Shown: in pieces, positions 2,819-24,558 of the stretch
How positions within the stretch are numbered: the first letter of the stretch is position 1
Layout of the letters: every line of letters begins with the position of its first letter
IMG/VR virus record: IMGVR_UViG_3300025151_000271
Location: 1-25,365 of that record
DNA: 25,365 nucleotides
From: a virus
Strand: one strand, 5' to 3'
Position numbers and translations under genes: made by a program
Notes under the pieces: model-generated
Database searches by the model: none
The model's input: only the letters and a program-made list of their open reading frames with translations
Told to the model about the DNA's origin: nothing

Positions 2819-3637
2819 ATGACATTAGACGAAAGATACGAACAATTAAGGGCAGAATTATCGGTAAACCCATACGCAGAGGTTGAGTACCCGCCAATAG
2901 CTATTAGCTATGGTACATACAAATCAAAAGACGACACATATCCAACACCCATAGGAACCTATGGAAACTTCAGCTTTGTACAAGCACCACCAAAAAGTAA
3001 GAAGACATTCTTTATATCAATGATTGCAGGAGCCTACTTGTCCGGCAAAACGGACTGCACAGGCGCAATTAGAGGCCATAGAGACAACCTTAGGTTAGTT
3101 CACTTTGATACTGAGCAAGGTATATTCCACGCTCAAAAGGTATTTCGTAGAGTATTAGATATATCTAAATATGATGGTCTGGATTATGATCCATATGCAA
3201 TGAGGACATTGCCTGCAAACGAAAGAGTAAAGTTTATTGACTGGTACTTAGATAAGTATCAAGATGAAACAGGCTTTGTTATTATAGATGGTGTTGCTGA
3301 CCTAGTTCTAGATGTTAACGACATTAAAGAATCAGCAGCTATAGTCCAGGAGATAATGAGATGGAGTGAAGAGTATAACGTTCATATTATGGTAGTTATA
3401 CATAGTAACTTCAATAGCGATAAACCTACAGGACACTTAGGTTCATTCCTAGAGAAGAAAACAGAGACACAGATACAACTTAAACTAAAGGAAGATAACG
3501 AAGACATAGTTGACGTTATATGTAAACGCAGTAGGTCCTACCCTTTTGAGCAATTCAGCTTTGAAGTGGATAGACAGGGCACTCCACGAATAATAGATAA
3601 AATCGATGACATACTCAGAATTGACACTTCATTTTGA
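2819..3637 (+). CDS. RecA-like/AAA_25 ATPase, probable replicative helicase-type protein
   Basis: The 272-residue product has a RecA-like P-loop fold. APPKSKKT at 56-63 is a variant Walker A (the family often has xxxKSxKT), VIID at 154-157 is the Walker B strand, and VVIHSN at 192-197 fits the sensor strand. GHLGSFLEKKTETQ (205-218) resembles the region after the RepA/DnaB-type ATPase core. It probably acts in phage DNA replication or recombination as a hexameric ATPase. The last 32 bases overlap the RusA gene, which implies coupled translation. At 3521-3535 the coding sequence contains TGTAAACGCAGTAGG, a copy of the dispersed motif, read as Cys-Lys-Arg-Ser-Arg. Confidence 0.7.
   Translation: MTLDERYEQLRAELSVNPYAEVEYPPIAISYGTYKSKDDTYPTPIGTYGNFSFVQAPPKSKKTFFISMIAGAYLSGKTDCTGAIRGHRDNLRLVHFDTEQGIFHAQKVFRRVLDISKYDGLDYDPYAMRTLPANERVKFIDWYLDKYQDETGFVIIDGVADLVLDVNDIKESAAIVQEIMRWSEEYNVHIMVVIHSNFNSDKPTGHLGSFLEKKTETQIQLKLKEDNEDIVDVICKRSRSYPFEQFSFEVDRQGTPRIIDKIDDILRIDTSF
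3521..3535 (+). repeat. intragenic motif copy in the RecA-like ATPase gene
   Basis: TGTAAACGCAGTAGG, read as Cys-Lys-Arg-Ser-Arg. One base differs from TTAAACGCAGTAGG in the core. Confidence 0.6.
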
Positions 3638-4025
3638 TATAAGACCAACACCGCACCAATCCTTTAGAAGAGGCCGGAACGGTATTGCTTACACACCAAA
3701 GAAAATACTTGACTTTAAAAAAGACATAGCGCAAATCGCAATGTCCCAAGTAGAAGATGGGTTTGAAATAATAAGAGCGGGAACTCCAATTATAGTGGAG
3801 CATCTACATTATTGTTTTGCATTTACTAAGTCCACAGCTCTTAAACGCAGAATAATAGGTATGCCAAAGGCAACTAAGCCAGACTTACTAGACAACCTGA
3901 ACAAAGCATTCATAGATGCTTTGGAAGGAACTATATTCGAGCAGGACCAAAATATCGTTGAGGTAAGAGATTTAAGAAAATTTTACGGAGAAAGCGATTA
4001 TATTCAAATAAAATTACTATATTAG
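3606..4025 (+). CDS. rusA: RusA-family Holliday junction resolvase
   Basis: The 139-residue protein has the RusA core KPDLLDNLNKAFIDALEG (91-108) followed by EQDQNIVEVRD (112-122). The usual metal-binding acidic residues map to Asp93, Asp96 and Asp114. The classical motif is KPDxDN, so this protein has one extra Leu between the two Asp residues, a mild oddity that may shift the ligand geometry. RusA enzymes resolve Holliday junctions formed during recombination and replication. The gene overlaps the ATPase gene by 32 bp. Codons at 3840-3850 (CTTAAACGCAG) are a copy of the dispersed motif. Confidence 0.8.
   Translation: MTYSELTLHFDIRPTPHQSFRRGRNGIAYTPKKILDFKKDIAQIAMSQVEDGFEIIRAGTPIIVEHLHYCFAFTKSTALKRRIIGMPKATKPDLLDNLNKAFIDALEGTIFEQDQNIVEVRDLRKFYGESDYIQIKLLY
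3840..3850 (+). repeat. intragenic motif copy in the RusA gene
   Basis: CTTAAACGCAG, read as Leu-Lys-Arg-Arg; exact 10-mer core. Confidence 0.6.
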
Positions 4026-4040
4026 TGCAAACAATTTAAT

Positions 4041-4217
4041 ATGTTCGGAATATCATTTTTTCCTATTTACGGTTGTGTTCTTGGGGTTAATTTTAAGGAT
4101 TCAGCAATGGATGAAGCTTTTGAAGAGGTTGGAGATTATATTATGATTCAGCTTCTTTTTTTTGTATTTGGAATAACTTTTTTATATTATGTGGGAGATA
4201 CTGACCAAGAGGCATAA
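4041..4217 (+). CDS. 58-residue membrane protein
   Basis: ATG 4041 to TAA 4215-4217 encodes a small protein with a hydrophobic N-terminus (MFGISFFPIYGCVLGV), an acidic middle (KDSAMDEAFEEVGD) and a strong transmembrane segment at about residues 34-50, then an acidic end. Its last 29 bases overlap the start of the sigma-like gene. I recognise no family. The overlap and the clean membrane topology argue that it is expressed. Confidence 0.45.
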   Translation: MFGISFFPIYGCVLGVNFKDSAMDEAFEEVGDYIMIQLLFFVFGITFLYYVGDTDQEA

Positions 4218-4749
4218 AGAGTGGATACAGATGGCTAAGTCCATATGTAATGATATACACCTGGCTAATGATTTAGTTCAGGATATGTACTTGAGAATAA
4301 ATAGATATGTCGATAAACCAAATAAAATTATTAAAGATGGTGAGGTTAATTCTTACTTTATATATATCACTTTACGCAACCTGTTCTATGACTCTAAAAA
4401 GAGCTACAAGGCAGAAATCAATAAAAACTATTCCGCTATTGAAAACATCAATATCCTTTCGTCTCTTGCGGAAGTTCCAGAAGAAAGAAAGAAAAATGAC
4501 CTTATGGAGGAGGCATATTTTAATATATTTGAAGCCATTGATAAGGAAGTTTCTACTTGGCATTGGTACGACCAAAAATTATTCAAGCTATACTATTATA
4601 CTGATCAATCTCTTAGAGATATTGCTAGCGATACAAAGATTTCACTTACGAGCATATATAATTCTTGCAAGAACTACAGAAAGATTATTGAAGAAAAGTT
4701 CGGTGAAGACATAGAAGACTTTTTTAATCAAGATTACGATAAGATATGA
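4189..4749 (+). CDS. sigma-70-like (ECF-type) RNA polymerase sigma factor
   Basis: The 186-residue product has a region 2-like N-terminal helix pair (WIQMAKSICNDIHLANDLVQ, then DMYLRINRY, about 12-40) and a C-terminal region 4-like helix-turn-helix (QSLRDIASDTKISLTSIYNS, about 139-158, then CKNYRKIIEEKF). This is the domain order of small sigma factors. It would direct host RNA polymerase to phage promoters. The three accessory promoters at 10071, 11204 and 12588 share an unusual upstream repeat and are attractive targets, but that link is inference. It overlaps the 58-residue gene and, by 4 bp, the next gene. Confidence 0.7.
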   Translation: MWEILTKRHKEWIQMAKSICNDIHLANDLVQDMYLRINRYVDKPNKIIKDGEVNSYFIYITLRNLFYDSKKSYKAEINKNYSAIENINILSSLAEVPEERKKNDLMEEAYFNIFEAIDKEVSTWHWYDQKLFKLYYYTDQSLRDIASDTKISLTSIYNSCKNYRKIIEEKFGEDIEDFFNQDYDKI

Positions 4750-5165
4750 ACATACCAGAAGCACCAAAAGATAAACGAACCAAAGCATATAAGGAGTGGA
4801 AGGCCAAGTATGACTCAGCCCCAAAAGGGCTGGGTGATACCATAGAAAAGATTACTACAGCTACAGGAATAAAAAAAGCTGTGAAGTTCTTAGCCGGAGA
4901 AGATTGCGGTTGCGACGAACGTAAGGAAGTCCTTAACAAGAAATTTAGATATAAGAAGCCTAATTGTTTGCTTGAAGATGAATATAATTTTGTTAGTGAT
5001 ATAATTGAAAGCGGAGTTGATAGATTAGATGCCGCACAAGTAAATAGAATGATTGAGGTTTATAATAGGGTTTTTAATGAAAACAGAAAGCCAACTAACT
5101 GTAATTCTTGTTTTATCAACAGTATATTTAAACCATTAAAAACATTATATGGAACCTATAAATAA
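4746..5165 (+). CDS. conserved phage hypothetical protein with cysteine motifs
   Basis: The 139-residue product has a basic N-terminus (APKDKRTKAYKEWKAKY), a GLGDTIEKITTATGIKKAVKF segment and a CGCDERKEVLNKKF motif at about 53-66. A late NCNSCF (about 118-123) completes four closely paired cysteines that may bind zinc. The GLGDTIEK...CGCDERK pairing is one I have seen in other Bacteroidota phage proteins of unknown function. It overlaps the genes on both sides (4 bp and 17 bp), so it belongs to the early operon. No enzymatic motif is visible. Confidence 0.55.
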   Translation: MNIPEAPKDKRTKAYKEWKAKYDSAPKGLGDTIEKITTATGIKKAVKFLAGEDCGCDERKEVLNKKFRYKKPNCLLEDEYNFVSDIIESGVDRLDAAQVNRMIEVYNRVFNENRKPTNCNSCFINSIFKPLKTLYGTYK

Positions 5166-5544
5166 AGAAGCCGATTTATTCGACTTTCTTAAACGCAGTA
5201 CATATCCTGACCTTGTCAAGGCTAAAACTCAGATGAGTCGATGGGATTGCTACTCGCCAAAGGTTAGGCACCGTATAGAACTTAAATGCAGGAGAAAACA
5301 TTATGACACATTACTTATTGAAAAAAAGAAATTTGATGCGATTATTGAGGTCTGTGAAGACAATCTCGACATACCTATGTATATTTGTAGTACTCCAAGT
5401 GGTGTATTCGCATTTAATTTATTTTGGGTTGAACCTAACTGGGAAATCAACAGAAGAAATCCAGCTACTACTGAGTTCGCTAATGGGGCTAGGATAGAAA
5501 AAGAAGTAGCATATTTAAACATAAAAGAAGCAACGAAATTATGA
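5149..5544 (+). CDS. possible PD-(D/E)XK-type nuclease-like protein
   Basis: The 131-residue product includes DCYSPKVRHRIELKCR (about 33-48) followed by HYDTLLIEKKKFDAII and PMYICSTPSGVFAFNL. An Asp followed about 12 residues later by Glu-Leu-Lys fits the D...(D/E)xK pattern of PD-(D/E)XK nucleases, and the later strands fit the fold. The assignment is tentative because the motif is short. The gene starts inside the previous one (17-bp overlap) and its stop overlaps the next start. Bases 5186-5200 are a copy of the dispersed motif and encode Leu-Lys-Arg-Ser at residues 14-17. Confidence 0.45.
   Translation: MEPINKEADLFDFLKRSTYPDLVKAKTQMSRWDCYSPKVRHRIELKCRRKHYDTLLIEKKKFDAIIEVCEDNLDIPMYICSTPSGVFAFNLFWVEPNWEINRRNPATTEFANGARIEKEVAYLNIKEATKL
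5186..5200 (+). repeat. intragenic motif copy in the possible nuclease gene
   Basis: TTCTTAAACGCAGTA, read as (Phe-)Leu-Lys-Arg-Ser; matches the first 15 bases of the 17-mer exactly. Confidence 0.8.
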
Positions 5545-5891
5545 ATAATCCTAAAAAATCATTTTACGGAGGAGGATATGTATCGGATTACAGCGACTTT
5601 GTAAACCCTCCAAAAGAAAATAGAAAAAATATACCTGTTTATTCAGGTGTATTAAAATACTTTCCTGATGCAATTAAAGAGGTTGCTAAGTGCAGCTATG
5701 CAGGGAACGAACAGCATAATCCTGGTACTCCATTACATTGGGACAGGAGTAAATCTGGAGATGAGTTAGACGCTTTAATGCGTCACCTCATCGATGCAGG
5801 AACAATAGATACAGATGGCGTAAGACATTCAGCTAAAGTAGCTTGGAGAGCATTGGCCAATCTGCAAAAAGAAATAGAGAATGAAAGCTAA
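5541..5891 (+). CDS. dATP/dGTP diphosphohydrolase-like protein (DUF5664 type)
   Basis: The 116-residue product matches the N-terminal domain seen in phage dATP/dGTP diphosphohydrolases. VLKYFPDAIKEVAKCSYAGNEQHNPG (about 37-62) precedes HWDRSKSGDELDALMRHLID and RHSAKVAWRALANLQKEIE. The helical E/D/H-rich pattern is that of all-alpha NTP pyrophosphohydrolases that act on dNTPs. A role in changing the deoxynucleotide pool is plausible. It sits in an overlapping early operon. Confidence 0.65.
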   Translation: MNNPKKSFYGGGYVSDYSDFVNPPKENRKNIPVYSGVLKYFPDAIKEVAKCSYAGNEQHNPGTPLHWDRSKSGDELDALMRHLIDAGTIDTDGVRHSAKVAWRALANLQKEIENES

Positions 5892-6018
5892 ACGAATTAC
5901 CCAAGCACAGAAGCTTAAACAACTAGAAGGCAATGTTGCACAGTTGCAGTCAATGGTTGTAGATATATATAGAATGGTGCAAGAAAATACTAAAGCCAGA
6001 ACAGATGGAAAAAGTTAA
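5881..6018 (+). CDS. 45-residue coiled-coil hypothetical protein
   Basis: ATG 5881 to TAA 6016-6018 gives a basic, heptad-like peptide (QAQKLKQLEGNVAQLQSMVV, then DIYRMVQEN). It overlaps the upstream gene by 11 bp and the downstream gene by 14 bp, the same tight spacing as its neighbours, which supports real expression. No known family recognised. Confidence 0.5.
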   Translation: MKAKRITQAQKLKQLEGNVAQLQSMVVDIYRMVQENTKARTDGKS

Positions 6019-6256
6019 AGATATAAAAAAAGAAGATTTAATTGAATTAGGATTTAAGAGAAACCATAAACATAGTTATGTATATATACATAATGGTGTC
6101 GTTGTTTTTGAAGCTTACATTCACGATGTTGTTGTTGATACTTTCTTTGTTATGTTTTCGATAAGAAACTCAGATATACATATTGATTATAAAGCAGACT
6201 TAAAAAACCTTATGGATGTAATTACAAAAAATATCATTCAATCGTGGATAGTATAA
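6005..6256 (+). CDS. hypothetical protein, 83 residues
   Basis: The product starts with a charged helix (MEKVKDIKKEDLIELGFKRN) and continues with alternating hydrophobic strands (HSYVYIHNGVVVFEAYI, VVVDTFFVMFSIRNSDIHIDY), then a helix. This looks like a small alpha/beta protein. I recognise no family. It overlaps the 45-residue gene and the exonuclease gene and is likely to be coupled to the latter. Confidence 0.5.
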   Translation: MEKVKDIKKEDLIELGFKRNHKHSYVYIHNGVVVFEAYIHDVVVDTFFVMFSIRNSDIHIDYKADLKNLMDVITKNIIQSWIV

Positions 6257-6987
6257 AACTTCTTGATGGTACTGACTGGGCTATAGATGATATAGTCGAA
6301 AAGATGTACGATAATGAGTTCTACTATGGATACCTCAATAAAGCATCCTTATCCTCATCGTCCTGCAAGAAATTACTAGAGGGTATCGACAGCTACTTAG
6401 GTAACCGAGAGCCTTTAGACAGCAATATGAAGCCTCTGCGTGAAGGTAGGCTTATCCACGTTTCATTACTAGAAAAAGATAAGCTAGATGACTATTATCA
6501 TTTTGTTGATGTAGCTACTAGACGTAACAAAGGTTATAAGGAAGCTGTTAAAGATTCTTCTCTGGAGGGTAAAGAGATTATGCTATCTAAGGAGAAGGTA
6601 TGGGCGCAAAGCATTGTTGATGCTGTTTTGGATAATCCAACAGCAAAAGAATTGTTTACAGGAGGTGAATATGAATTACCAGGAATCGGATACGTTGATG
6701 GACTTCCCTTCAGGGCCAAAGCAGACTGCTTGAGAGATGATCGGATAGTCGACCTTAAGACGACATCCGACATCGATTCTTGGCACTATAATATGGATTA
6801 TTATGGATATGATGCACAAGCATACATTTATATGTCGATATTTAAGAAAAAAATGTTTACCTTTGTTATTGTAGACAAAAAGACACTGAAAGTAAAAACA
6901 TATGACGCAACACCCGATGACATACAACGAGGTTACGAGAAAGTTAGCGAGGCAATTGGAAACTATATTGACGGAGTGGGATTTTGA
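6244..6987 (+). CDS. RecE-like PD-(D/E)XK exonuclease
   Basis: The 247-residue product matches the RecE C-terminal/DUF3799 exonuclease layout. LSSSSCKKLLEG (36-47) is the family entry motif, GRLIHVSLLE (68-77) gives His72, and VDGLPFRAKADCL carries Asp161. IVDLKT (168-173) provides the D-x-K pair Asp170/Lys172, and YDAQAYIY (189-196) is the Gln-Tyr motif. This enzyme would resect duplex DNA so that the ERF protein can anneal the single strands. The only start consistent with the full N-terminus is GTG 6244, within the end of the upstream gene. Length and motifs are complete. Confidence 0.85.
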   Translation: MDSIKLLDGTDWAIDDIVEKMYDNEFYYGYLNKASLSSSSCKKLLEGIDSYLGNREPLDSNMKPLREGRLIHVSLLEKDKLDDYYHFVDVATRRNKGYKEAVKDSSLEGKEIMLSKEKVWAQSIVDAVLDNPTAKELFTGGEYELPGIGYVDGLPFRAKADCLRDDRIVDLKTTSDIDSWHYNMDYYGYDAQAYIYMSIFKKKMFTFVIVDKKTLKVKTYDATPDDIQRGYEKVSEAIGNYIDGVGF

Positions 6988-7186
6988 TACTCCTATAGTA
7001 AAAGATTATTTTATTCTCACTTGCAATGATATAATAGCTGGAGTTCCATTAAAAGAACTTTATGTTAGTATAGATTTGTTTGAGCAGCTGGAGGCTTACG
7101 AGGAGTGTATGGGAATACTTTTAGCGTGTCAATTGTGCACTACATTAACAATGCAAATATATTTAAACAAAGACAACGATGAATAA
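6902..7186 (+). CDS. hypothetical protein, long overlap with exonuclease gene
   Basis: The 94-residue product is mostly helical with a hydrophobic, Cys-containing C-terminal half (ECMGILLACQLCTTLTMQIY). The start is uncertain: ATG 6902 gives an 86-bp overlap with the exonuclease gene and ATG 6917 gives 71 bp. No in-frame ATG occurs right after the exonuclease stop, though TTG codons at 6956 and 6971 exist. The stop overlaps the next ATG. No family recognised. Confidence 0.45.
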   Translation: MTQHPMTYNEVTRKLARQLETILTEWDFDTPIVKDYFILTCNDIIAGVPLKELYVSIDLFEQLEAYEECMGILLACQLCTTLTMQIYLNKDNDE

Positions 7187-7754
7187 TGAAATAGCCCAAG
7201 AGGTAACTAGAATAGAAAAGATAGTATCAACTGTAACAGGCAGAGACTTAAGGAGCAATGTAAGGAACCATAAGAACGTAATTGCTAGATTAATATTTTA
7301 TAAGGTAACGTATGATTATCTTTGTAAGATAGGTATGGAAAGGGGTGCTAAATCTTATGTAGCTAAATTTATAGGGAAAGACCACGCTACAGCACTGTAC
7401 GCTTTAGGTAGATTTAAGTACGACATACTCGGTTCTCCACTAAATAAAAAGATGTACAGTAAATGCGTTGAGGTCTTTGAAAGTGTTGGAGATGTCTACT
7501 CAAGTGTAGATGAAAGAGACTTAATGATAGATGAACTGAAAAACAAAATAACCGACCTTCAGTTAAGATTAAAGGATGCTAAACCTTATCGTGAAGAGGT
7601 TGAGGTACTTGTGGAACTTATAAACCAGGTCCCAAGTGAACATATAGAGACTGCTGAGTTCAGAATATTAACAATGTTAAAAGGATTTAAAATTGCACCG
7701 AAAAACCAAGAAACCAAAGTTATCGGCTCTTATGAAACGGTTACAAGCTTCTAG
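7179..7754 (+). CDS. DnaA domain IV-like DNA-binding protein without the ATPase
   Basis: The 191-residue protein has at about residues 28-82 a helical region resembling the C-terminal DNA-binding domain of DnaA. RNHKNVIARLIFYKVTYDYL is followed by AKFIGKDHATALYALGRF, which fits the DnaA signature IGxxFGxxDHTTVxHA. No Walker motifs are present, so only the DNA-binding part is there. The second half (105-150) is a likely coiled coil (DERDLMIDELKNKITDLQLR). It may mark the phage origin, recruit host replication proteins, or repress. The binding site cannot be read from this sequence. Confidence 0.7.
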   Translation: MNNEIAQEVTRIEKIVSTVTGRDLRSNVRNHKNVIARLIFYKVTYDYLCKIGMERGAKSYVAKFIGKDHATALYALGRFKYDILGSPLNKKMYSKCVEVFESVGDVYSSVDERDLMIDELKNKITDLQLRLKDAKPYREEVEVLVELINQVPSEHIETAEFRILTMLKGFKIAPKNQETKVIGSYETVTSF

Positions 7755-7947
7755 AAGTATGGAAGCTCAAAGTTACTGTTTTAATAAAGGCTATAAGATA
7801 TACCCAATCCCTGAAGGATTGGATTACCGTATACAAATAGAGTATAAGGGTCAGACTAAATTAGGAGAAAAGATATATAGCAAAACCGAATGGTATGATG
7901 CTATATGGGAATTATACGATAGGATATATGAAGGAAGAAACCTATAG
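7732..7947 (+). CDS. conserved flavophage hypothetical protein
   Basis: The 71-residue product begins MKRLQASRSMEAQSYCFNKG and continues with YKIYPIPEGLDYRIQIEYKG and EWYDAIWELYDRIYE. I recall similar short proteins from flavobacterial phages, without a function. Start ATG 7732 gives a 23-bp overlap with the upstream gene. ATG 7759, just after that gene, is an alternative, while the TTG at 7693 is unlikely. The downstream SET gene starts 20 bp before its stop. Confidence 0.55.
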   Translation: MKRLQASRSMEAQSYCFNKGYKIYPIPEGLDYRIQIEYKGQTKLGEKIYSKTEWYDAIWELYDRIYEGRNL

Positions 7948-8266
7948 ACCGCTACCACCTTCTCTTACTATTAAACGCAGTAGGGTTGATGGTCTGGGCT
8001 TATTCGCTAACGAATATATAGAGGCAGAAACTTATCTTGGAATCACACATATTTTTTTGTATATGGAAGCTGAATGGATCAGAACTCCGTTAGGCGGATT
8101 TATAAATCATAGTTCAAATCCAAATTGTTCCATAGTGTATAAAGATAATGAATATGGCAGAAGCAAAAGAATGTTATATACAGAGGAAGATATAGCTCCT
8201 GGAGAAGAGCTTTTGGTTTATTATTCTTTAGATGAATATAAAGATAAAATAAGTAATTTTAAGTAA
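7928..8266 (+). CDS. short SET-domain protein, probable protein lysine methyltransferase
   Basis: The 112-residue product contains the three SET hallmarks: GLGLFA at 22-27, FINHSSNPNC at 58-67 and GEELLVYY at 92-99. These bind S-adenosylmethionine and build the knotted active site. It consists of almost nothing but a minimal SET core. Substrate unknown; host or virion proteins are possible. I chose ATG 7928 over the upstream ATG 7895 because SET proteins of this type begin just before the IKRSRVDGLG motif, and this start leaves a 20-bp overlap. The codons of Ile-Lys-Arg-Ser-Arg (7970-7984) are a near-perfect copy of the dispersed motif. Confidence 0.8.
   Translation: MKEETYRPLPPSLTIKRSRVDGLGLFANEYIEAETYLGITHIFLYMEAEWIRTPLGGFINHSSNPNCSIVYKDNEYGRSKRMLYTEEDIAPGEELLVYYSLDEYKDKISNFK
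7971..7986 (+). repeat. intragenic motif copy in the SET gene
   Basis: TTAAACGCAGTAGGGT, identical to the intergenic copies over 16 bases, encodes the Lys-Arg-Ser-Arg part of the SET entry motif. Confidence 0.85.
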
Positions 8267-8688
8267 TGCCTAGACGAAAGCCAGAACGTAAATATATGAA
8301 GAAGACCGATGGTCGGAAGGGTAACGGTGCAAAGCGTGGCGATGCACTTGTCCGGAAGACTATGGCTACTCCTGCTAATATAAACAAGGCTAAGAAGAAC
8401 AGGTCAAAGATACTTGCTACCAATGCGATAGAAGAGGTTTATGGGTCTGAGGCTAACTTCTGGAAGATGGTTGCGGAAAAGGCAGAGAACTCGCAGTACG
8501 ACCGTAAGATGGTTATTGAGTATGTATACGGTAAGGCAATGGATAATCCTGATGCGCTGTCCCAAGCAAAGGACATAGACTTCTCCATTGTAAACATCTT
8601 TACAGGCTCAGAGAAACCAAAAGAAATAGAAGACATAATCGACATTACACCTGAAGATGAAAGTACCGAATCTGAACCCGAAGTATAA
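8266..8688 (+). CDS. terS: probable terminase small subunit
   Basis: The 140-residue product has a very basic N-terminus (MPRRKPERKYMKKTDGRKGN), a helical core (AIEEVYGSEANFWKMVAEKA, then VIEYVYGKAMDNPD) and an acidic tail (EDIIDITPEDESTESEPEV). This fits small terminase-like proteins of Bacteroidota phages, which bind the packaging site and load the large subunit. The start shares a base with the SET stop and the last 32 bp overlap terL. The assignment rests mainly on position and general layout, not on a clear HTH. Confidence 0.55.
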   Translation: MPRRKPERKYMKKTDGRKGNGAKRGDALVRKTMATPANINKAKKNRSKILATNAIEEVYGSEANFWKMVAEKAENSQYDRKMVIEYVYGKAMDNPDALSQAKDIDFSIVNIFTGSEKPKEIEDIIDITPEDESTESEPEV

Positions 8689-9868
8689 ATCGTTTGGTAA
8701 TGACTCTAGATACTTTATCACCACAGGTGGTCGAGGGTCTGGTAAGTCTTTTGCTGTTAACGTATTCTTACTGCTCCTAACATACGAGAAAGGACATAAG
8801 ATACTTTTTACACGGTATACGATGGTATCTGCATCTTCATCGATTATTCCTGAGTTCATTGAGAAGCTGGAGCTTATGGGGGTTGTCGAGGACTTTCGCA
8901 TAACGAAGGACGAGATAACAAATATAAAGACAGGCTCATCGATTATGTTTAAAGGGATACGCACAGCCTCAGGGAATCAGACAGCATCACTCAAATCGTT
9001 AAACGCAATAACCACCTTTGTCCTGGATGAAGCTGAAGAGCTGATAGACGAGGACACATTCGATAAGATTGACCAGTCTGTTAGAGTGAAGACTAAACCT
9101 AATAGGGTTATCCTGATACTTAACCCAACCACTAAAGAACACTGGATATGGGGGCGTTTCTACGCCAACAGAGACATTCCCGAGGGCTTCAACGGTATTA
9201 AGTCGGGGATTACATATATACATACGACATACTTAGATAACACTGATAACCTGTCGCAGTCGTTCCTGAATCAGATAGCAGAGATTAGAAGACGTAGACC
9301 TGAGAAGTACACACACCAGATACTTGGTGGGTGGATGGAAAAGCAAGAAGGAGTAATTTTTACTAATTGGAGAATAGGGGAATTTAACAGTAACTATGAA
9401 ACTATATTCGGACAGGATTTCGGTTTCTCTGTTGACCCTACTACACTTGTGAAGTTAGCAATAGACAAAGGCAACAAGCGGATATTCCTAAAAGTAATGT
9501 ATGCTAAGACAGGAATGTCTACAACTCAAATTGCTGATTATAACATAAGGTATGCAGGTCCGCACCTCATAGTGTCGGACTCTGCAGAACCACGACTGAT
9601 TAAGGAGATTAAGCTTAAGGGATGTAACATTAGACCGACCGTTAAACGCAGTGGGTCTATCTTGTCGGGAATAGCACTGCTCCAGGATTATGACCTGATC
9701 ATTGACCCTGACTCCACAGAGCTGATTAAGGAGCTGAATAACTATGTGTGGGCCACTAAAGGACAGACAAAACCTGTAGATAAATGGAATCACTGTATCG
9801 ATGCTATCAGATATGCAGCTCAATATGTTTTAGTAAATCGCACAAAAGGTTCTTATACTATTAGGTAG
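8657..9868 (+). CDS. terL: terminase large subunit (Terminase_3 / PBSX type)
   Basis: The 403-residue product is a complete packaging motor. Walker A is GGRGSGKS at 24-31. Walker B with the catalytic acid is FVLDEAEEL at 121-129, and motif III is ILILNPT at 152-158. The C-terminal RNase H-like nuclease has QDFGF (Asp254), VSDSAEPRLI (Asp308) and HCIDAIRYA (Asp382). It cuts concatemers and pumps DNA into proheads. The gene overlaps terS by 32 bp. Two copies of the dispersed motif lie inside it: 8997-9010, read in a different frame as Ser-Leu-Asn-Ala-Ile, and 9641-9656, read as Val-Lys-Arg-Ser-Gly. Confidence 0.95.
   Translation: MKVPNLNPKYKSFGNDSRYFITTGGRGSGKSFAVNVFLLLLTYEKGHKILFTRYTMVSASSSIIPEFIEKLELMGVVEDFRITKDEITNIKTGSSIMFKGIRTASGNQTASLKSLNAITTFVLDEAEELIDEDTFDKIDQSVRVKTKPNRVILILNPTTKEHWIWGRFYANRDIPEGFNGIKSGITYIHTTYLDNTDNLSQSFLNQIAEIRRRRPEKYTHQILGGWMEKQEGVIFTNWRIGEFNSNYETIFGQDFGFSVDPTTLVKLAIDKGNKRIFLKVMYAKTGMSTTQIADYNIRYAGPHLIVSDSAEPRLIKEIKLKGCNIRPTVKRSGSILSGIALLQDYDLIIDPDSTELIKELNNYVWATKGQTKPVDKWNHCIDAIRYAAQYVLVNRTKGSYTIR
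8997..9010 (+). repeat. intragenic motif copy 1 in terL
   Basis: CGTTAAACGCAATA, in a different reading frame from the other intragenic copies (Ser-Leu-Asn-Ala-Ile). Confidence 0.55.
9641..9656 (+). repeat. intragenic motif copy 2 in terL
   Basis: GTTAAACGCAGTGGGT, one base from the intergenic unit in its 3' half, read as Val-Lys-Arg-Ser-Gly. Confidence 0.75.
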
Positions 9869-9883
9869 TTTAAAATATTTTTG

Positions 9884-9891
9884 TATATTTG
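9884..9891 (+). promoter_or_regulatory. TATATTTG promoter box downstream of terL
   Basis: A perfect TAnnTTTG box begins 16 bp after the terL stop. No good TTTG -33 element is present at the usual distance. No ORF starts behind it before a large hairpin at 9936-9991, so it may drive a short noncoding RNA. Confidence 0.5.
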
Positions 9892-9895
9892 CTGT

Positions 9896-9993
9896 ATCGA
9901 AAGATTGTGATTGTATTTTGTTTCATTAGGTAATATCCCTGATTTTGTTTGGCTCTGTATTCCCTCTCGGGAGCCTCTCAAAATCGGGGATTT
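9896..9993 (+). ncRNA. candidate small noncoding RNA
   Basis: A perfect promoter box, about 40 unstructured bases and a long hairpin ending near 9991 occur with no ORF. The predicted transcript is about 100 nt. This is a candidate from layout only and matches no RNA family I know. Confidence 0.3.
9936..9991 (+). terminator. large hairpin between terL and the accessory block
   Basis: ATCCCTGATTTTG (9936-9948) pairs with CAAAATCGGGGAT (9979-9991) over 13 positions with one G-U pair, and an inner stem TCCC/GGGA with GGCT/AGCC lies within. It is followed by TTTATCG rather than a long T run, so it may be a terminator or an RNA processing element. Confidence 0.6.
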
Positions 9994-9995
9994 AT

Positions 9996-10036
9996 CGTTA
10001 AACGCAGTAGGGTAATTCTTAAACGCAGTAGGGTAA
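9996..10036 (+). repeat. repeat cluster A: two tandem copies of the dispersed motif
   Basis: CGTTAAACGCAGTAGGGTAA is followed at once by TTCTTAAACGCAGTAGGGTA plus A. The two copies are 21 bp apart and follow the hairpin at 9936-9991 directly. Confidence 0.9.
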
Positions 10037-10070: not shown

Positions 10071-10116
10071 TTAACCATTTCTTAACGTTAGCTTAACATT
10101 GGATTCTATATATTTG
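10071..10116 (+). promoter_or_regulatory. accessory promoter P1 with 11-bp periodic TTAAC repeats
   Basis: TTAACCATTTC, TTAACGTTAGC and TTAACATTGGA start at 10071, 10082 and 10093, exactly 11 bp apart. TATATTTG (10109-10116) follows, 19 bp after TTAACGTT. Only four bases lie between the box and ATG 10121, so the transcript is probably leaderless. Confidence 0.75.
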
Positions 10117-11078: not shown

Positions 11079-11151
11079 TTCTTAAACGCAGTAGGTTCTT
11101 AAACGCAGTACCTTCTTAAACGCAGTAGGGTAATTCTTAAACGCAGTAGGG
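11079..11151 (+). repeat. repeat cluster B: four tandem copies of the dispersed motif
   Basis: Copies of TTCTTAAACGCAGTAGG begin at 11079, 11096, 11113 and 11134 (spacing 17, 17, 21). The second ends in ACC and the third carries the extra GTAA also seen in cluster A. The cluster runs directly into the terminator at 11155. Confidence 0.95.
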
Positions 11152-11154
11152 TTT

Positions 11155-11200
11155 GCCTTACACCCCTGTAGGGCATTTCCTACATTGGTGTAGGGCTTTT
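11155..11200 (+). terminator. bipartite intrinsic terminator of unit P1
   Basis: GCCTTACACC pairs with GGTGTAGGGC (one G-U), and an inner TGTAGG/CCTACA stem closes the loop. TTTT follows. Confidence 0.85.
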
Positions 11201-11203
11201 CTG

Positions 11204-11270
11204 TTTACAATTTCTTAACATTAGCTTAACATTAAGTTAACATTAAGCCACATAAAACGCCTTATGTTTG
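11204..11270 (+). promoter_or_regulatory. accessory promoter P2 with 11-bp periodic TTAAC repeats
   Basis: TTTACAATTTC, TTAACATTAGC, TTAACATTAAG and TTAACATTAAG begin at 11204, 11215, 11226 and 11237, always 11 bp apart. TATGTTTG (11263-11270) follows the last TTAACATT by 18 bp. ATG 11295 lies 24 bp further on. Confidence 0.8.
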
Positions 11271-18994: not shown

Positions 18995-19143
18995 TAAAAA
19001 ATATTTTAGACTTATTGAAGTTAGATGATTATTACGGTATGTCACCTCATATTGATATAGCTAAAGGAAAATACCAAGCACCTAGAACAATAAAAGAAGC
19101 ACTTAAAAAACATAAAAGATGGCAGCACAATCAGAATACTTAA
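18991..19143 (+). CDS. 50-residue conserved phage protein
   Basis: ATG 18991 to TAA 19141-19143 encodes MIKNILDLLKLDDYYGMSPH, then IDIAKGKYQAPRTIKEALKK and a short end. It overlaps the preceding gene by 4 bp and the tape-measure gene by 25 bp. Its position between the baseplate and tape measure genes is consistent with a small structural or assembly factor. Function unknown. Confidence 0.55.
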   Translation: MIKNILDLLKLDDYYGMSPHIDIAKGKYQAPRTIKEALKKHKRWQHNQNT

Positions 19144-21077
19144 TTAATATAAAGGTAATAGATGGCAAAGCTCAAGCTAGTGTAGATGGGCTTACTAAAG
19201 GTTTTGTAGACTTAGATACTGCATTAACTAAAGTAAAAACTTCTACAGTACAAGCTAGTAAAGCTACAGATAATTTAGGTAAGAAAAACCTAGACCTTAT
19301 GTCTAAGGCTGGCCTTGCAGGGGCCACCCTTACTGAGGTTGGTAGAACTATATCAGATTTACCCTATGGTATTAGAGGTGTTGCTAACAACTTGTCGCAG
19401 CTCTCGACGTTGTTTGTTACTCTTATTAGCACAACAGGAGGTTTTAAAAATGCAATGAAGTTGTTAAGTATGCAAATAATGGGGCCACTCGGAATTATAT
19501 TAGCATTCCAAGCTGCATTAGCTGCATTAGATTATTTCGCTGGCGGTGTAAAAAAGGCTTCAGATGCAATTGACTCATTTGGTAATAAATTTGGAGAATC
19601 AGCAGCTAAATTAATAACTTATAAAAACGTGCTTAATGACGCTACTATATCTGCAAAAGAAAAAAGGCACGTTCTAAAAGAAGTTACAAAAGAAACGGGT
19701 GGATTAAATGTTAAATTGGATGAAAATAATCAACTAACATCAGAGTCAACTAGGTTATTAGATGACAACATAGAAAAATTAAAAGAACAGGCTGAAGTTA
19801 GAGCGATAATAGATAGGCTTACTCAATTAAATACTAATAAGTTAAAATTAGAATACGAATTAAGTCAGCAAACCGAAGGTCAATATGATAGGTTCCTAAA
19901 GTCAATAGATGCAGCAGGAGCAGCAATTGGTAGTTTACCAAGTATATCCGACTTTCTGCAATTAGGTAAGTTAGAGAAATTTGCTGAGTTTGTTGGATTA
20001 GACGAGATAAAACGCATAGGAGGTGACTTAGAAGATGTTAATAACGAGATAGCTTCTTTGTTAGAGAAATTATCTGGCAAAACCTTAAATGTGTTCAAAG
20101 ACTTAAAAAAGGGTGGGAGAGCTAGAAAAATCGTTGACGACTTCAATCAATACTTTACCAAAGAAATGGATGCTCTAAATGTAGCTAGGGCTGGCAGTGA
20201 AATAAGAAGATTAAAGGAAGAAAGATTCCAAAGATCAAATTCTTTAAACATAGAGATTGCAAATAGAAAAGCTAAAGAGAAAAAATTATTTGAAGATGGT
20301 ATTATAGATCAAGAGGAATATAACTTTAGAATAGGAGAATTAGAGTTTCTCAAGGGAGAAAAAATGATTCAAATAAACAAAGAAATTGACCGAGCTATAA
20401 ATGAAGCTAGAATAAATAACTTTATGGGTCAAGTAGAGCTTATTGCTAGTATTGGGGATCAATTCCTTGAGTCTGAAATATCCAGAGAAGAAAGAAAAAC
20501 TGTTTTAATGAATAATCAACTTAAAGAAAGATTAAGAAATGATAGTTTATCAGCAAAAGAAAGGGAAAGTATAAATGCTCAGATAGAAGCTAACGAGGAA
20601 AATCTACAAAAGAAAAGAGATAAGTTAGCCGAGAAGCAATTTAAAATACAAAAAGCAGTATCTATAGGTCAGGCATTAATAAATACCTATGAGATGGCTA
20701 ACAGGGCGTATAATGCAGTATTGGCTGGGCCAGAAAAGTTTCTGGGTATATCTGCTTTAGTATTGGCTAAAATTGCAGCAGGTACAGCAACCGCCTTAGG
20801 TCTCGCTAACGTAGCTGCAATTGCTAGACAACAATTTGTTCCTTCTGCATTATCAGCAGGTGGCGGTGCTGGAGGTGGAGGTGGAGCAGGTGGGGCAGGA
20901 GCCGGCATAGAAGCTCCTGACTTCAATATAGTGGGTGCTTCGGCATCTAGTCAATTAGCTCAAACGGTAGCCGGTCAAGAAGCTAAACCTGTTAAAGCGT
21001 TTGTTGTTGGTAAAGACATATCATCACAATTAGAATTAGATAGAAATATAAGTAGTACAGCTTCATTCGGAGGATAA
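19119..21077 (+). CDS. tape measure protein
   Basis: The 652-residue product is long and helical, with a hydrophobic segment at about 99-140 (TLFVTLISTTGGFKN, MGPLGIILAFQAALAALDYF). It has a long charged coiled-coil region (about 180-510) with many ExxxR/KxxxE heptads, a hydrophobic helix near 555, and a Gly/Ala linker (SAGGGAGGGGGAGGAG) near 585. This is the usual plan of tape measure proteins, which set siphovirus tail length. 652 residues would specify a short to medium tail. It follows the chaperone and tail genes as expected. Confidence 0.75.
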   Translation: MAAQSEYLINIKVIDGKAQASVDGLTKGFVDLDTALTKVKTSTVQASKATDNLGKKNLDLMSKAGLAGATLTEVGRTISDLPYGIRGVANNLSQLSTLFVTLISTTGGFKNAMKLLSMQIMGPLGIILAFQAALAALDYFAGGVKKASDAIDSFGNKFGESAAKLITYKNVLNDATISAKEKRHVLKEVTKETGGLNVKLDENNQLTSESTRLLDDNIEKLKEQAEVRAIIDRLTQLNTNKLKLEYELSQQTEGQYDRFLKSIDAAGAAIGSLPSISDFLQLGKLEKFAEFVGLDEIKRIGGDLEDVNNEIASLLEKLSGKTLNVFKDLKKGGRARKIVDDFNQYFTKEMDALNVARAGSEIRRLKEERFQRSNSLNIEIANRKAKEKKLFEDGIIDQEEYNFRIGELEFLKGEKMIQINKEIDRAINEARINNFMGQVELIASIGDQFLESEISREERKTVLMNNQLKERLRNDSLSAKERESINAQIEANEENLQKKRDKLAEKQFKIQKAVSIGQALINTYEMANRAYNAVLAGPEKFLGISALVLAKIAAGTATALGLANVAAIARQQFVPSALSAGGGAGGGGGAGGAGAGIEAPDFNIVGASASSQLAQTVAGQEAKPVKAFVVGKDISSQLELDRNISSTASFGG

Positions 21078-21109
21078 GAACAAAAAGCAACTTAATAAGT
21101 TATTTAGGT

Positions 21110-22285
21110 ATGGAAGAAATAAAAGTAATCGAACTTATCATTGATGAGGAGAATGAAATCAGTGGAATAGATGCTATTTCAATCGTAGACGACCCAGCAA
21201 TACAAGAGGACTTCATTATGCTTAGTTCTCAAGAGGTAAAACTAGCAGAAGTAGATCAAGAGAAGAAGATTCTTATGGGGCCTGCTCTAATTCCTAATAA
21301 AAAGATATACCGAAGAAGTGGAGAGGATGAATATTACATTTATTTCTCTGAAGATACCGTCAGAAAAGCCTCAGAGCTTTTCCTGACTAAAGGATATCAA
21401 AATAATGCTACTTTAGAACACGATGGAGACCTAGATGGCTTATCTGTCGTAGAATCTTGGATTATAGACGATACAAATCAAGATAAATCAAGAAAATACG
21501 GTTTTGACCTACCTAATGGCACTTGGATGGTCTCTATGAAGGTATATGACGACTCAGTATGGTCAGATTACGTTAAAACAGGCAAAGTAAAAGGTTTTAG
21601 CATCGAAGGACATTTCGCAGATGCTATGGAAAGACCTCAAGAGCAACTTCCTGAGTATGGAGATGAAGAGCTAGAGGCTTTATCACTCATAGAAGAGCTT
21701 ACAGAGGCTATGGAGGTCGAATTACGCACATATGATGATTATCCTAAGGCTGCAAGAGAAAATGCACAGAAAGTCCTTGATTGGCGTTTGCGTTATGGTC
21801 GTGATGAGGTTAAAGGAATGACTAGGGTGGGCTGGCGAAGAGCCAATCAGCTCTCTAAAGGTCAAAAAATCAGCCGCTCAACGATTGCTAGGATGGCTTC
21901 ATTCAATAGACACCGTAGAAACGCTACTATAGACCCAGACTTAAGAGGAACGCCCTGGAAAGATGCAGGATACGTTGCTTGGCTTGGTTGGGGTGGTACT
22001 GAAGGTGTAAATTGGGCTATCCGTAAGATGAAGCAATTCAGGAGAGGGGAGTTTGCGTCTATGGTTATTGATAAGAACACCGCTATAATAGATGATAGGC
22101 TTGCGTATGCAACAAAGGAGCTTGCAGAGAAAGCTGCTGAAGATATTGGATGCGAAGGATATCACGAACACGAATTTGAGGGCGAAACCTGGTATATGCC
22201 CTGTGAAAAGCACAATCTAGCAGAGGTGGGACCAAAAGGTGGCATAAAAAGCTCTCCTAAAAAACACCCTAAATCTTCAAAATGA
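21110..22285 (+). CDS. XkdF-type prohead protease fused to two extra domains
   Basis: The 391-residue product has an XkdF-like serine protease at about 1-180 (ILMGPALIPNKKIYRR, TLEHDG with His104, KGFSIEGHF with Ser164). A second domain at about 208-308 (YPKAARENAQKVLDWRLRYG, GYVAWLGWGGTEGVNWA) is found in several phage structural or maturation proteins. A third small domain at about 330-368 (LAYATKELAEKAAEDIGCEG, then YHEHEFEGETWYMPCEKH) has Cys and His residues. A C-terminal Gly/Lys/Ser tail follows. The protease should mature the prohead. The role of the added domains is unknown. Confidence 0.7.
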   Translation: MEEIKVIELIIDEENEISGIDAISIVDDPAIQEDFIMLSSQEVKLAEVDQEKKILMGPALIPNKKIYRRSGEDEYYIYFSEDTVRKASELFLTKGYQNNATLEHDGDLDGLSVVESWIIDDTNQDKSRKYGFDLPNGTWMVSMKVYDDSVWSDYVKTGKVKGFSIEGHFADAMERPQEQLPEYGDEELEALSLIEELTEAMEVELRTYDDYPKAARENAQKVLDWRLRYGRDEVKGMTRVGWRRANQLSKGQKISRSTIARMASFNRHRRNATIDPDLRGTPWKDAGYVAWLGWGGTEGVNWAIRKMKQFRRGEFASMVIDKNTAIIDDRLAYATKELAEKAAEDIGCEGYHEHEFEGETWYMPCEKHNLAEVGPKGGIKSSPKKHPKSSK

Positions 22286-22434
22286 ACAGAAAGAAATTTG
22301 TTACACCATCGAATAGTAGTCCAAGAGGCGGACGTAGAGGATGTTTATGTAAAGACGGTAGGACTTACAGTAAGAAATGCTGCGATGGGTCACTCCAGGC
22401 TCAAGGTATAGGTCCTACTAGCGGAACAAGTTAA
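22282..22434 (+). CDS. 50-residue cysteine-rich protein of the CLCKDG...CC type
   Basis: ATG 22282 to TAA 22432-22434 gives RGCLCKDGRTYSKKCCDGSL, with four cysteines in CxC...CC spacing, then QAQGIG. I recall this tiny motif from head-gene clusters of many Bacteroidota phages. The cysteines could bind a metal or form disulfides. It overlaps the protease stop and precedes the scaffold gene. Confidence 0.65.
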   Translation: MNRKKFVTPSNSSPRGGRRGCLCKDGRTYSKKCCDGSLQAQGIGPTSGTS

Positions 22435-22504
22435 AAATACAACAAATACATACCGATTTAGTTAAGTAGTTAGTTAATTATTGTTTAACCTTATTAATTC
22501 GTAT

Positions 22505-22975
22505 ATGAAAGCTAACGAAATTGTAGAGCGTTTCAAAAACGTTTTACTTAGTACTGAGACTAAAGAAGAGGAAACTCCTGTAGTTGAAGACCAAGTAGAA
22601 TTGTCTGAGGAAGCTAAAGACATCCAAGTTGACGCTGCTGAGGAAGTTAAAGAAACTTCTGAAGAAGTTGAAATGACTGAAGAGCTAGAAGAAACTAAGG
22701 AAGTCGAAGAAGAAGTAATGGAAGAAGAAGATAAGTACGCTACTAAAGAAGAACTCGCTAAAGCTATGGCTGAAGTAAGAGGTATGATTGAAGAGCTTAC
22801 TGCACAAAAGGAAGAATTGGAAGTTCCAACTGAACTATCAAATCAAGAACCTGCTGTGGAGCCATTATCTCATAGTCCAGAAGCAGAGGTGTCTAAAAAA
22901 CCAACACACCTATTTGCACAAAATAGAAGTAAATCAACTCTTGACAGAGTAATGTCAAAAATAACAAACAACTAA
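22505..22975 (+). CDS. capsid scaffold-like protein
   Basis: The 156-residue product starts MKANEIVERFKNVLLSTETK. It is extremely acidic (runs of Glu at about 30-80), has a helical segment (KYATKEELAKAMAEVRGMIE, then ELTAQKEEL) and a basic end (FAQNRSKSTLDRVMSKITNN). This charge pattern and its place directly before the capsid gene are typical of scaffolding proteins. I use ATG 22505; the upstream TTG at 22481 would add an unrelated hydrophobic piece. Confidence 0.7.
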   Translation: MKANEIVERFKNVLLSTETKEEETPVVEDQVELSEEAKDIQVDAAEEVKETSEEVEMTEELEETKEVEEEVMEEEDKYATKEELAKAMAEVRGMIEELTAQKEELEVPTELSNQEPAVEPLSHSPEAEVSKKPTHLFAQNRSKSTLDRVMSKITNN

Positions 22976-22986
22976 AATAAAATAAA

Positions 22987-23907
22987 ATGCCAAATCCAAC
23001 TATTACTAGTTCATACGCAGGCGAATTTGCTGGCAAGTATTTAGCTGCTGCACTTTTATCTGCTGATACCTTAGATCAAGGTACTATCACTATTCTGCCT
23101 AACGTAAAATACAAGGCAGCTATGAAAGTAGGTGCTTTTTCAAATCTTGTTCGTTCTGCGGACTGCGATTTTGACTCAAGTACTTCAGGAATGACACTTA
23201 CAGAAAGAGTGCTTACTCCTACTGAGTTACAAGTAAACCTACAAATCTGTAAAAAAGAATTACACGCTGACTGGGAAGCTGCTCAGATGGGTTATTCTGC
23301 TTTTGACAGCTTACCTCCGCTATTCTCTGATTTCGTAATCGGACAAGTAGCTGCTGAGGTTGCTAAAGCAACTGAAACTTCTATCTGGAGTGGTTCTGCT
23401 GGAGAAGGGTCTTTCGATGGTTTTGAAACTCTACTTGCTGCTGACGCAACTGTTGTAGACGTTACTGCTGCATCTGTTGATTCATCTAACGTAATTGCAC
23501 AATTAGGTGCTATCGTTGATGCTATTCCAACTGCTGTTTACGGAAAAGAAGACTTAACTTTATATGTATCTTCTAACATCGCAAGAGCTTATGTTCGTGC
23601 GCTTGGTGGATTCGTTGCTACTATCGGTGGTGCAGGTACTGACAACAAAGGTTCTCAGTGGTACAACGGTGGTCAACTTTCTTTCGAAGGTATCAATATA
23701 GTTGTAGCTAAAGGACTTGCTGACAACACTGCTGTTGCAGCTCAGAAATCTAACTTATTCTTCGGAACAGGTCTATTAGATGACAGAAACGAAGTTAAGT
23801 TGATTGATATGGCTGATATCGATGGTTCACAAAATGTTCGTGTAGTTATGCGCTATACTGCAGGTGTACAATTCGGAATCGGTTCTGATATCGTTCTTTA
23901 TTCTTAA
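22987..23907 (+). CDS. major capsid protein, HK97-fold type
   Basis: The 306-residue product matches a flavophage capsid family. It has MPNPTITSSYAGEFAGKYLA at the start, LPNVKYKAAMKVG (about 38-50), TLTERVLTPTELQVNLQICK (about 70-89), a helix DFVIGQVAAEVAKATETSIW and a C-terminal FGIGSDIVLYS. Codon use is strongly biased to favoured GCT/GTT/ACT codons, as in a highly expressed gene. It follows the scaffold gene by 11 bp and ends with a strong terminator. Confidence 0.8.
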   Translation: MPNPTITSSYAGEFAGKYLAAALLSADTLDQGTITILPNVKYKAAMKVGAFSNLVRSADCDFDSSTSGMTLTERVLTPTELQVNLQICKKELHADWEAAQMGYSAFDSLPPLFSDFVIGQVAAEVAKATETSIWSGSAGEGSFDGFETLLAADATVVDVTAASVDSSNVIAQLGAIVDAIPTAVYGKEDLTLYVSSNIARAYVRALGGFVATIGGAGTDNKGSQWYNGGQLSFEGINIVVAKGLADNTAVAAQKSNLFFGTGLLDDRNEVKLIDMADIDGSQNVRVVMRYTAGVQFGIGSDIVLYS

Positions 23908-23926
23908 TAAACTGAAACATTAATCT

Positions 23927-23967
23927 AAAAGGGGTAGGTAAGCCTTAGAGCCTACCTGCCCTTTTTT
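23927..23967 (+). terminator. intrinsic terminator after the capsid gene
   Basis: AAAAGGGGTAGGT pairs with ACCTGCCCTTTT (one bulge, one G-U pair), followed by TTTTTT. Confidence 0.9.
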
Positions 23968-23982
23968 AATACTTAAATAATT

Positions 23983-24531
23983 ATGGCTTGTGATTTAACT
24001 AGAGGTAGAAAAGAACCCTGCAAAGACGTAGTAGGCGGTATAAAAGCTGTTTACTTTACTGATTTCGGTGACTTCGGAACTGTTACACAAACAAACGATG
24101 AGATTACTGATATGTCAGGAACTTTCACTGCCTTCAAATATGACGTAAAAGGAAACTCTTCTCTTGAGCAAACTATCAACGCTTCTCGTGAGAATGGAAC
24201 TTCTTTTTATGAGCAAACACTAAATCTAACCCTACACAAACTAAGTAAGGAAGACCACAAAGAGATTAAAATCTTAGCTGCTGGCCGTCCTCATATTGCT
24301 GTAGAAGACTATAACGGAAACGTAATGGTTGTAGGTTTAGAACACGGTGCTGATGTATCAGGCGGTACAATCGTAACAGGTGCTGCTATGGGAGACCTAA
24401 GCGGATATACTCTTACGTTTACTGCACAGGAAACTAAGCCTGCTAACTTTGTCGATAGCCCAACGGCTGCTGACCCATACGCAGGAATGTCAAGTGCTAC
24501 TGTAACTGTAACTGAAGGAACCAATTCTTAA
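23983..24531 (+). CDS. major tail tube protein
   Basis: The 182-residue product reads MACDLTRGRKEPCKDVVGGI, KAVYFTDFGDFG, FKYDVKGNSSLEQTINASRE and NGTSFYEQTLNLTLHKLSKE. It continues with VEDYNGNVMVVGLEHGADV and GGTIVTGAAMGDLSGYTLTF. I recall this layout as the tail tube protein of Bacteroidota siphophages. Its place right after the capsid gene, while most tail genes lie 4-10 kb upstream, is unusual. The stop codon TAA lies inside a copy of the dispersed repeat. A biased codon choice suggests high expression. Confidence 0.7.
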   Translation: MACDLTRGRKEPCKDVVGGIKAVYFTDFGDFGTVTQTNDEITDMSGTFTAFKYDVKGNSSLEQTINASRENGTSFYEQTLNLTLHKLSKEDHKEIKILAAGRPHIAVEDYNGNVMVVGLEHGADVSGGTIVTGAAMGDLSGYTLTFTAQETKPANFVDSPTAADPYAGMSSATVTVTEGTNS

Positions 24532-24558
24532 ACATAGTAGGTTCTTAAACGCAATAGG
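24525..24558 (+). repeat. repeat cluster C: two tandem copies of the dispersed motif
   Basis: TTCTTAAACATAGTAGG (24525-24541) and TTCTTAAACGCAATAGG (24542-24558) are exactly 17 bp apart. The first contains the tail tube stop codon and the second overlaps the left arm of the terminator. Confidence 0.85.

Follow-up and report, generated by a model that had tools for sequence, protein, structure and literature searches.

A strand-polar DNA motif arrayed at gene-module borders in a family of uncultured marine phages

Introduction

The IMG/VR virus record IMGVR_UViG_3300025151_000271, a stretch of 25,365 bases referred to below as the window, carries a short repeated motif whose exact form is the 10-mer TTAAACGCAG. 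In the window and its relatives, the motif constitutes a family of strand-polar sites that keep fixed positions relative to genes, are constrained at the level of nucleotides, are depleted from the structural module, and are associated with promoter elements, and all core genomes carry a gene for a DnaA-domain-IV-like protein. The favoured explanation, suggested by sequence analysis and held tentatively, is that the motif is a double-stranded-DNA protein site acting on transcription at the borders of gene modules, with the DnaA-IV-like phage protein encoded at 7179–7754 as its predicted binder.

The nearest isolates to the window by terminase large subunit (TerL) are the Nonlabens phages P12024L/S (51.6% at the amino acid level), followed by Riemerella phages, so the terminase makes it likely that the window belongs to a phage of marine Flavobacteriia. 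The phages that share the motif form an uncultured marine family whose hosts are probably Flavobacteria.

Motif family and strand polarity

In the window, TTAAACGCAG occurs ten times on the + strand and never on the − strand, against order-2 Markov expectations of 0.039 and 0.023, respectively. A first-pass annotation of the window had listed ten exact + strand copies and no reverse complement, and both statements, including all ten starts, were confirmed. The six close variants that it had named are real and lie on the + strand, with starts that, counted from the T of the core, fall at 409, 1002, 3522, 8999, 24528, and 24545. Counting both strands in relatives, as that annotation had proposed, extended the one-strand bias far beyond the window. 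The 10-mer is confined to one strand in 27/27 virus records; in 21 genomes (near-complete or partial), a position weight matrix gives 258 sense matches scoring at least 11 against 0 antisense; a set of 29 relatives, likewise near-complete or partial, holds 332 sense and 2 antisense sites that differ from TTAAACRYARTRGG by no more than one base; and full-length sites are divided 1176 to 0 by strand over 224 loci, overlapping contigs included. The motif strand is the strand of the core genes in 230/230 loci with full-length sites. The IMG/VR relatives counted are those among the matches listed, and most were found through a same-strand tandem search pattern, which biases the orientation of arrays and not that of dispersed single copies. 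Polarity at reverse-strand genes gives little guidance, since nearly all genes of these genomes run in one direction and the reverse open reading frames (ORFs) near arrays are tiny.

The extended unit, derived from 223 sites, reads A-T-[TC]-[CAG]-TTAAACGCA-G-T-[AG]-G-G-T-T and is conserved from position −4 to about +16. It exists in two dialects, the GC-type TTAAACGCAGTRGG and the AT-type TTAAACATAGTAGG, of which the latter was first seen in the relative G002 and then retrieved from IMG/VR; genomes that mix both dialects are common. The AT-dialect 10-mer TTAAACATAG lies almost wholly on one strand per record in ten records, with two copies against the trend.

No isolated phage was found to carry the motif, and P12024L has neither a copy nor a repeated substitute at the same positions. 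In the GTDB, the 17-mer gave 14 matches in 85,000 genomes, against about 30 expected by chance, and one of these loci is an array. A host-derived element was rejected, as the 17-mer is essentially absent from host genomes. Among bacteria, a tandem pair of the motif was found at one place only, 3543–3573 of locus L142 (Flavobacteriaceae metagenome-assembled contig CALTAJ010000002.1), where the pair adjoins ORFs for a tyrosine integrase, a helix-turn-helix protein, and leucine-rich-repeat/DUF285 surface proteins; this locus may be a satellite or what is left of a phage. No description of the motif or of its spacing rule turned up in the papers searched, and the text matches listed for the 10-mer were in unrelated papers.

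Positions relative to genes and selection on nucleotides

Arrays of the motif mark particular module ends. Of 29 genomes, 27 have an array no more than 250 nucleotides (nt) past the stop codon of TerL, and 19 have one after the gene family g40; in 25/27, an array stands ahead of the structural genes on the side of TerL. Most other core genes are followed by an array in only 0–6 of about 28 genomes (an exception, g33, in 11/29). Sites are densest (1.47/kb) in the stretch that leads from TerL up to the structural genes; they fall to 0.22/kb in the tail, lysis, and early genes and to 0.03/kb in the structural module of about 11 kb. Although intergenic sequence makes up 7.8% of the total, it holds 122 of 221 motif centres.

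The copies within genes occupy reading frames 0 and 1 only, frame 2 being absent there because it puts a TAA stop in the gene; the first-pass annotation had likewise described copies as both intergenic and intragenic and as leaving the frame intact. That same frame-2 TAA provides the stop codon of the preceding ORF in 23 of 221 copies (21 genomes), and the first copy of array IV in the window ends ORF 23983–24531 in this way. An explanation at the peptide level (LNAVG) was rejected because the copies lie in two reading frames.

The two copies in TerL show that the motif is kept while the coding sequence diverges, a check that had also been proposed. Among 62 distinct TerL genes, close relatives keep the copies at 9642 and 8999 exactly in 27/27 and 26/27 cases, respectively, and distant ones in 14/32 and 17/32. 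Two TerL groups that share a mean nucleotide identity of 72% were compared, and no 14-base windows of the gene are better conserved between them than the two motif copies. In 41 TerL genes from the two groups, only 5 of 90 four-fold sites with a fixed amino acid are invariant, namely, 9007, 9649, and 9655 inside the copies, 9658 abutting a copy, and 9820 elsewhere. As the invariant sites lie almost only in or beside the motif, selection acts on the nucleotides. The distant group was chosen for having the copy at 9642, and the copy at 8999 is therefore the unbiased part of the test.

Promoters and terminators next to the arrays

Promoter elements follow many arrays. A phased pair of TTAACRTT lies at most 250 nt downstream in 19/48 arrays, against 0.95% of random places, and TAnnTTTG lies downstream in 24/48 against 18% at random. 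In the window, array III is separated from its promoter module by a terminator-like hairpin, and the promoter module of array II follows without one (Table 1). In the relatives G006 and G010, the last copy of the array forms, as judged by eye, the 5′ arm of a terminator, CGCAGTGGGGTTTCACTGCGTTTTTTT; at G006:3606 and G010:18871, the terminator is of a perfect intrinsic type, CGCAGTG..CACTGCGTTTTTTT.

The TTAACRTT repeats recur with an 11-nt phase ahead of −7 boxes of the Bacteroidetes type and are invariably on the gene strand, both in relatives and in the window (10082–10100, 11215–11244, and 12610). Their geometry is like that of PHO boxes (8-bp direct repeats with 3-bp spacers); some phage promoters may therefore be under the phosphate control of the host. 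That the motif itself is a promoter of the phage sigma factor was considered unlikely, since the conserved block is a single stretch of about 17 nt without bipartite −35/−10 spacing.

Candidate binder

The candidate binder is the 7179–7754 product, which the first-pass annotation had named as a possible ligand of the motif. Its match to the Pfam family Bac_DnaA_C has an E-value of 0.0016 and a score of 18.8 bits, short of the curated cut-off of 31.5. Its AlphaFold model has a mean-confidence score (pLDDT) of 82.6, and the four best PDB matches of the model by Foldseek are all DnaA DNA-binding structures (probability 1.00), including 3pvp, 1j1v, and 1l8q, with TM scores of 0.73–0.77 to isolated DnaA domains. 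The modelled fold places the protein in the DnaA domain IV family, a membership to which its sequence points weakly. In an alignment of 70 sequences, H69, the equivalent of H434 in E. coli, is invariant, and R29, V34, A36, and R37 are nearly so; the motif-free P12024L carries R at the H434-equivalent position, with DRLT where others have xHxx. Homologs were found in 22/22 genomes of the first set (21 motif genomes and P12024L) and in 8/9 records of the second, the exception (G042) being without any core gene, and 105 distinct homologs occur in motif contigs. A tblastn search for isolate phages with the DnaA-like protein gave no match.

Favoured explanation and evidence against it

The first-pass view of a strand-polar, dispersed signal with a function at the DNA level is supported. 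In the favoured explanation, the phage would keep its sites in one orientation relative to the genes, grouped into arrays at module ends, where the DnaA-IV-like protein may form a polar complex with the DnaA-box-like core TTAAACGCA or TTAAACATA. Such a complex could stop or insulate RNA polymerase at the end of the early/packaging block and could also help recruit polymerase to promoters that start 60–140 nt further on, so that early transcription would be divided from structural transcription. We infer both the binding by the 7179–7754 product and the sign of its effect, which may be block, activation, or elongation control.

Several observations weigh against this explanation. On the side of the protein, the Foldseek E-values of the model are weak (0.03–0.2), and P12024L has a DnaA-IV-like protein yet no motif. 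The dialect does not covary with the recognition helix, as an AT-type locus (L381) and a GC-type locus (L155) share RDHACVINALN, and the alignment columns most tied to dialect lie mostly outside that helix. Either the protein accepts both dialects or it is not the reader; profile, fold, and universal presence make it look right as the binder, but the specificity-covariation test does not support it. On the side of the DNA, the motif core in neither dialect agrees with the DnaA box TTWTNCACA at more than 7 of the 9 positions, and by our own estimate, a likeness this good occurs in roughly 8% of random 14-mers. A recognisable terminator follows only a minority of arrays. In one small subclade (G043/L371, L385, L388, and L411), arrays at two conserved positions are antisense; they read ATAATATTAAACATA on the antisense strand and contain the core TTAAACATA. 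The inverted unit embeds the palindrome TAATATTA, which makes the functional orientation of these arrays uncertain; if truly inverted, they argue against an RNA signal and against a roadblock strictly oriented to transcription.

The spacing of neighbouring sites is likewise not predicted by double-stranded-DNA binding, since start-to-start distances are mostly odd. Counting distinct spacers, odd distances outnumber even ones 122:15 in the GC dialect, 105:9 in the AT dialect, and 41:6 in mixed neighbours; after similar spacers are clustered, the ratios are 42:9 and 38:9, i.e., 80:18 over both dialects. Array spacings run 15, 17, 19, and so on to 37 nt and cover all helical phases. Some even spacings hide a decayed copy, and the parity rule fades beyond about 60 nt. 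Stems of increasing length do not account for the rule, since the arrays do not fold (mean z of +0.64 for 43 arrays).

Alternative explanations

The alternative that survives best, though unlikely, is a replication origin, in which the DnaA-IV-like protein would be the initiator, the arrays would be iteron- or DnaA-box-like and recruit the host replisome, and polarity would set the direction of helicase loading. The DnaA-like fold, the direct-repeat arrays, their polarity, and the whole-array inversion in one subclade all fit such an origin, and among the window genes examined, none was recognised as a polymerase, primase, or replicative helicase, so recruitment from the host may be needed. 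Against an origin stand the number of array positions (three to five in each genome), the single intragenic copies, and the strong tie of the arrays to module ends and promoter elements; the GC skew has no switch point at the arrays in the genomes tested, a result that is uninformative.

Antitermination is rather unlikely as well. The DnaA-like and sigma-like pair (7179 and 4189) would load on RNA polymerase and read through downstream terminators, as GafY/GafZ do in Caulobacter; antitermination by GafZ is known, and GafY travels with RNA polymerase. Both families are present in 22/22 genomes, arrays in several genomes stand just 5′ of terminator hairpins, and single copies are spread across the long early block. 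Known loaders, on the other hand, work at promoters and not at the 3′ ends of units, and the long structural block, which would need antitermination most, is almost site-free.

The odd spacing led to a further reading, which is given little probability, that the motif is read in a two-base register, either by a machine stepping two bases on one strand or by a polymer that binds single strands, each unit taking up two bases. Alternating registers would then guarantee one readable copy. We know of no counterpart of a cis-signal read in this manner.

A signal read by a translocase in packaging, recombination, or single-strand nicking (like Chi, pac, or the nick sites of T5 and tf) is improbable. 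The sites are polar, dispersed, and nearest to the terminase, and through their odd spacing, neighbours fall into opposite registers of two bases, as might suit a machine with a two-base step. The near absence of sites from the structural module, their massing at module borders, and the lack of enrichment of the 17-mer in host genomes nevertheless tell against it, and for the same reasons the Chi- or KOPS-like role suggested in the first-pass annotation is not supported. Phage T5 and the Pseudomonas phages tf and phikF77 have localised one-strand nick sites with a short, polar, dispersed motif; unlike the present motif, those sites are not arrayed at module borders.

Least probable of these is a use of the arrays as recombination linkers, i.e., border repeats with which ERF, Sak4, and exonuclease exchange gene modules. 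The most variable stretch, which separates TerL from the structural genes, does have arrays on either side, and ERF is present in all genomes and a Sak4-like protein in nearly all (22-genome comparison), but the synonymous constraint on single intragenic copies and the promoter association are not expected of linkers. Two other early suggestions found no support: an RNA-level signal, given unstructured arrays, no Rfam match in the window, and one subclade with inverted arrays, and a mobile repeat, which would not yield near-perfect polarity or exact synonymous-site conservation in TerL.

Comparison with known systems

The favoured action on RNA polymerase may be likened to that of stoperators, GafY, or a DnaA roadblock. 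The stoperators of cluster A mycobacteriophages, which are sites of the L5 repressor, are short and asymmetric, number more than 20 per genome, lie in short intergenic spaces, and have an orientation that is tied to transcription and needed for their effect (PMC9283540). The motif is likewise asymmetric and numerous and keeps one orientation relative to transcription, save in the one subclade with apparently inverted arrays. It differs in its sequence and candidate binder, which are unrelated, and in its tandem arrays and intragenic copies. Stoperators are bound by an immunity repressor that halts elongation, and their phages are temperate; among the window and G003 genes examined, neither a repressor nor an integrase was recognised.

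GafA and GafY/GafZ consist of DnaA-like and sigma-like parts that activate gene-transfer-agent clusters from upstream sites and antiterminate, and ACTATG is part of the GafY element, which lies at −123 to −113 (PMC11150451; PMC9638019; PMC6363796). The reverse complement of ACTATG, CATAGT, occurs in the AT dialect. As with GafA (RcGTA) and GafY/GafZ (CcGTA), a DnaA-like and a sigma-like protein are here paired with phage-type genes and with a site far upstream of the promoter. This pair occurs in all 22 genomes, but its two genes are not adjacent. The Gaf systems are alphaproteobacterial, with one or few sites instead of polar arrays across the genome.

E. coli DnaA prefers closely spaced tandem boxes, 2–3 bp apart (PMC11317965). 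The motif resembles DnaA boxes in its asymmetric 9-mer core and in the domain IV fold of its candidate binder, but it differs from the box at positions 4 and 7 (4 and 8 in the AT dialect), its spacing is 15–37 nt instead of 11–12, and the candidate binder is without an ATPase domain. Schaefer and Messer reportedly observed in 1989 that the transcription block at DnaA boxes depends on orientation.

Features of the window

The features discussed above are collected in Table 1. The window encodes ERF, an AAA_25/Sak4-like protein, RusA, a sigma-like protein, DUF3799/exonuclease VIII, the DnaA-IV-like protein, and a SET-domain protein, as well as TerL, GP88, structural proteins, endolysins, and a holin-like protein. 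The relative G003 (31,617 bases) has the same gene order and an 82-base end overlap, which makes it circular as assembled. A scan that covered part of the ORFs of the window and of G003 recognised no integrase or repressor. The SET-domain (methyltransferase-like) ORF at 7895–8266 stands upstream of the terminase genes and is present in 21/21 motif genomes; it was not found in P12024L by the search used. The stretch 479–892 matches GTA_holin_3TM, the family of a gene-transfer-agent holin. Relatives carry a tandem pair where the window has the single copy at 1002–1015.

Table 1. Motif copies, arrays, and associated features of the window.
Feature	Position	Strand	Remarks
Copy TTAAACGCATTGGG	409..422	+	Within endolysin-like ORF, frame 1
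Copy TTAAACGCAATGGG	1002..1015	+	Between two ORFs; holds ATG of M15-peptidase-like ORF at 1011
Copy GTAAACGCAGTAGG	3522..3535	+	Within AAA_25 (Sak4-like) gene
Weak copy TTAAACGCAGAATA	3841..3854	+	Within rusA
Sigma-factor-like protein	4189..4749	+	Sigma-70 regions 2 and 4; kept in 22/22 genomes compared
Copy TTAAACGCAGTACA	5189..5202	+	Within ORF 5149–5544
DnaA domain-IV-like protein, candidate binder	7179..7754	+	Domain at residues about 18–84, plus helical C-terminal part
Copy TTAAACGCAGTAGG	7971..7984	+	Within SET-domain ORF
TerL	8657..9868	+	Anchor for finding relatives and for synonymous-site test
Copy TTAAACGCAATAAC	8999..9012	+	Within TerL, frame 0
Copy TTAAACGCAGTGGG	9642..9655	+	Within TerL, frame 1
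Array II	9998..10032	+	Two copies 21 nt apart, 3′ of TerL stop; position kept in 27/29 genomes
Promoter module 3′ of array II	10082..10116	+	TTAACGTT-N3-TTAACATT, then TATATTTG (Bacteroidetes-type −7)
Array III	11082..11150	+	Four copies, spacings 17, 17, and 21 nt, ahead of GP88 and structural genes; position kept in 25/27 genomes
Intrinsic-terminator-like hairpin	11178..11203	+	Between array III and its promoter module
Promoter module 3′ of array III	11215..11270	+	Three TTAACATT at 11-nt phase, then TATGTTTG
Array IV	24528..24558	+	AT-type TTAAACATAGTAGG, then GC-type copy, 17 nt apart; position kept in 19/29 genomes
Intrinsic-terminator-like hairpin	24558..24585	+	Directly after array IV: GCCTCACC..GGTGGGGC, then T-run

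Significance

The odd-spacing rule is a new and precise constraint, one which no standard DNA-binding model predicts. The motif would constitute a regulatory code shared by abundant uncultured marine phages and readable from sequence alone, in which the positions of the sites would predict the ends of transcription blocks. If the DnaA-like protein is its reader, a DnaA-plus-sigma logic that until now was known from gene transfer agents would extend to ordinary phages.

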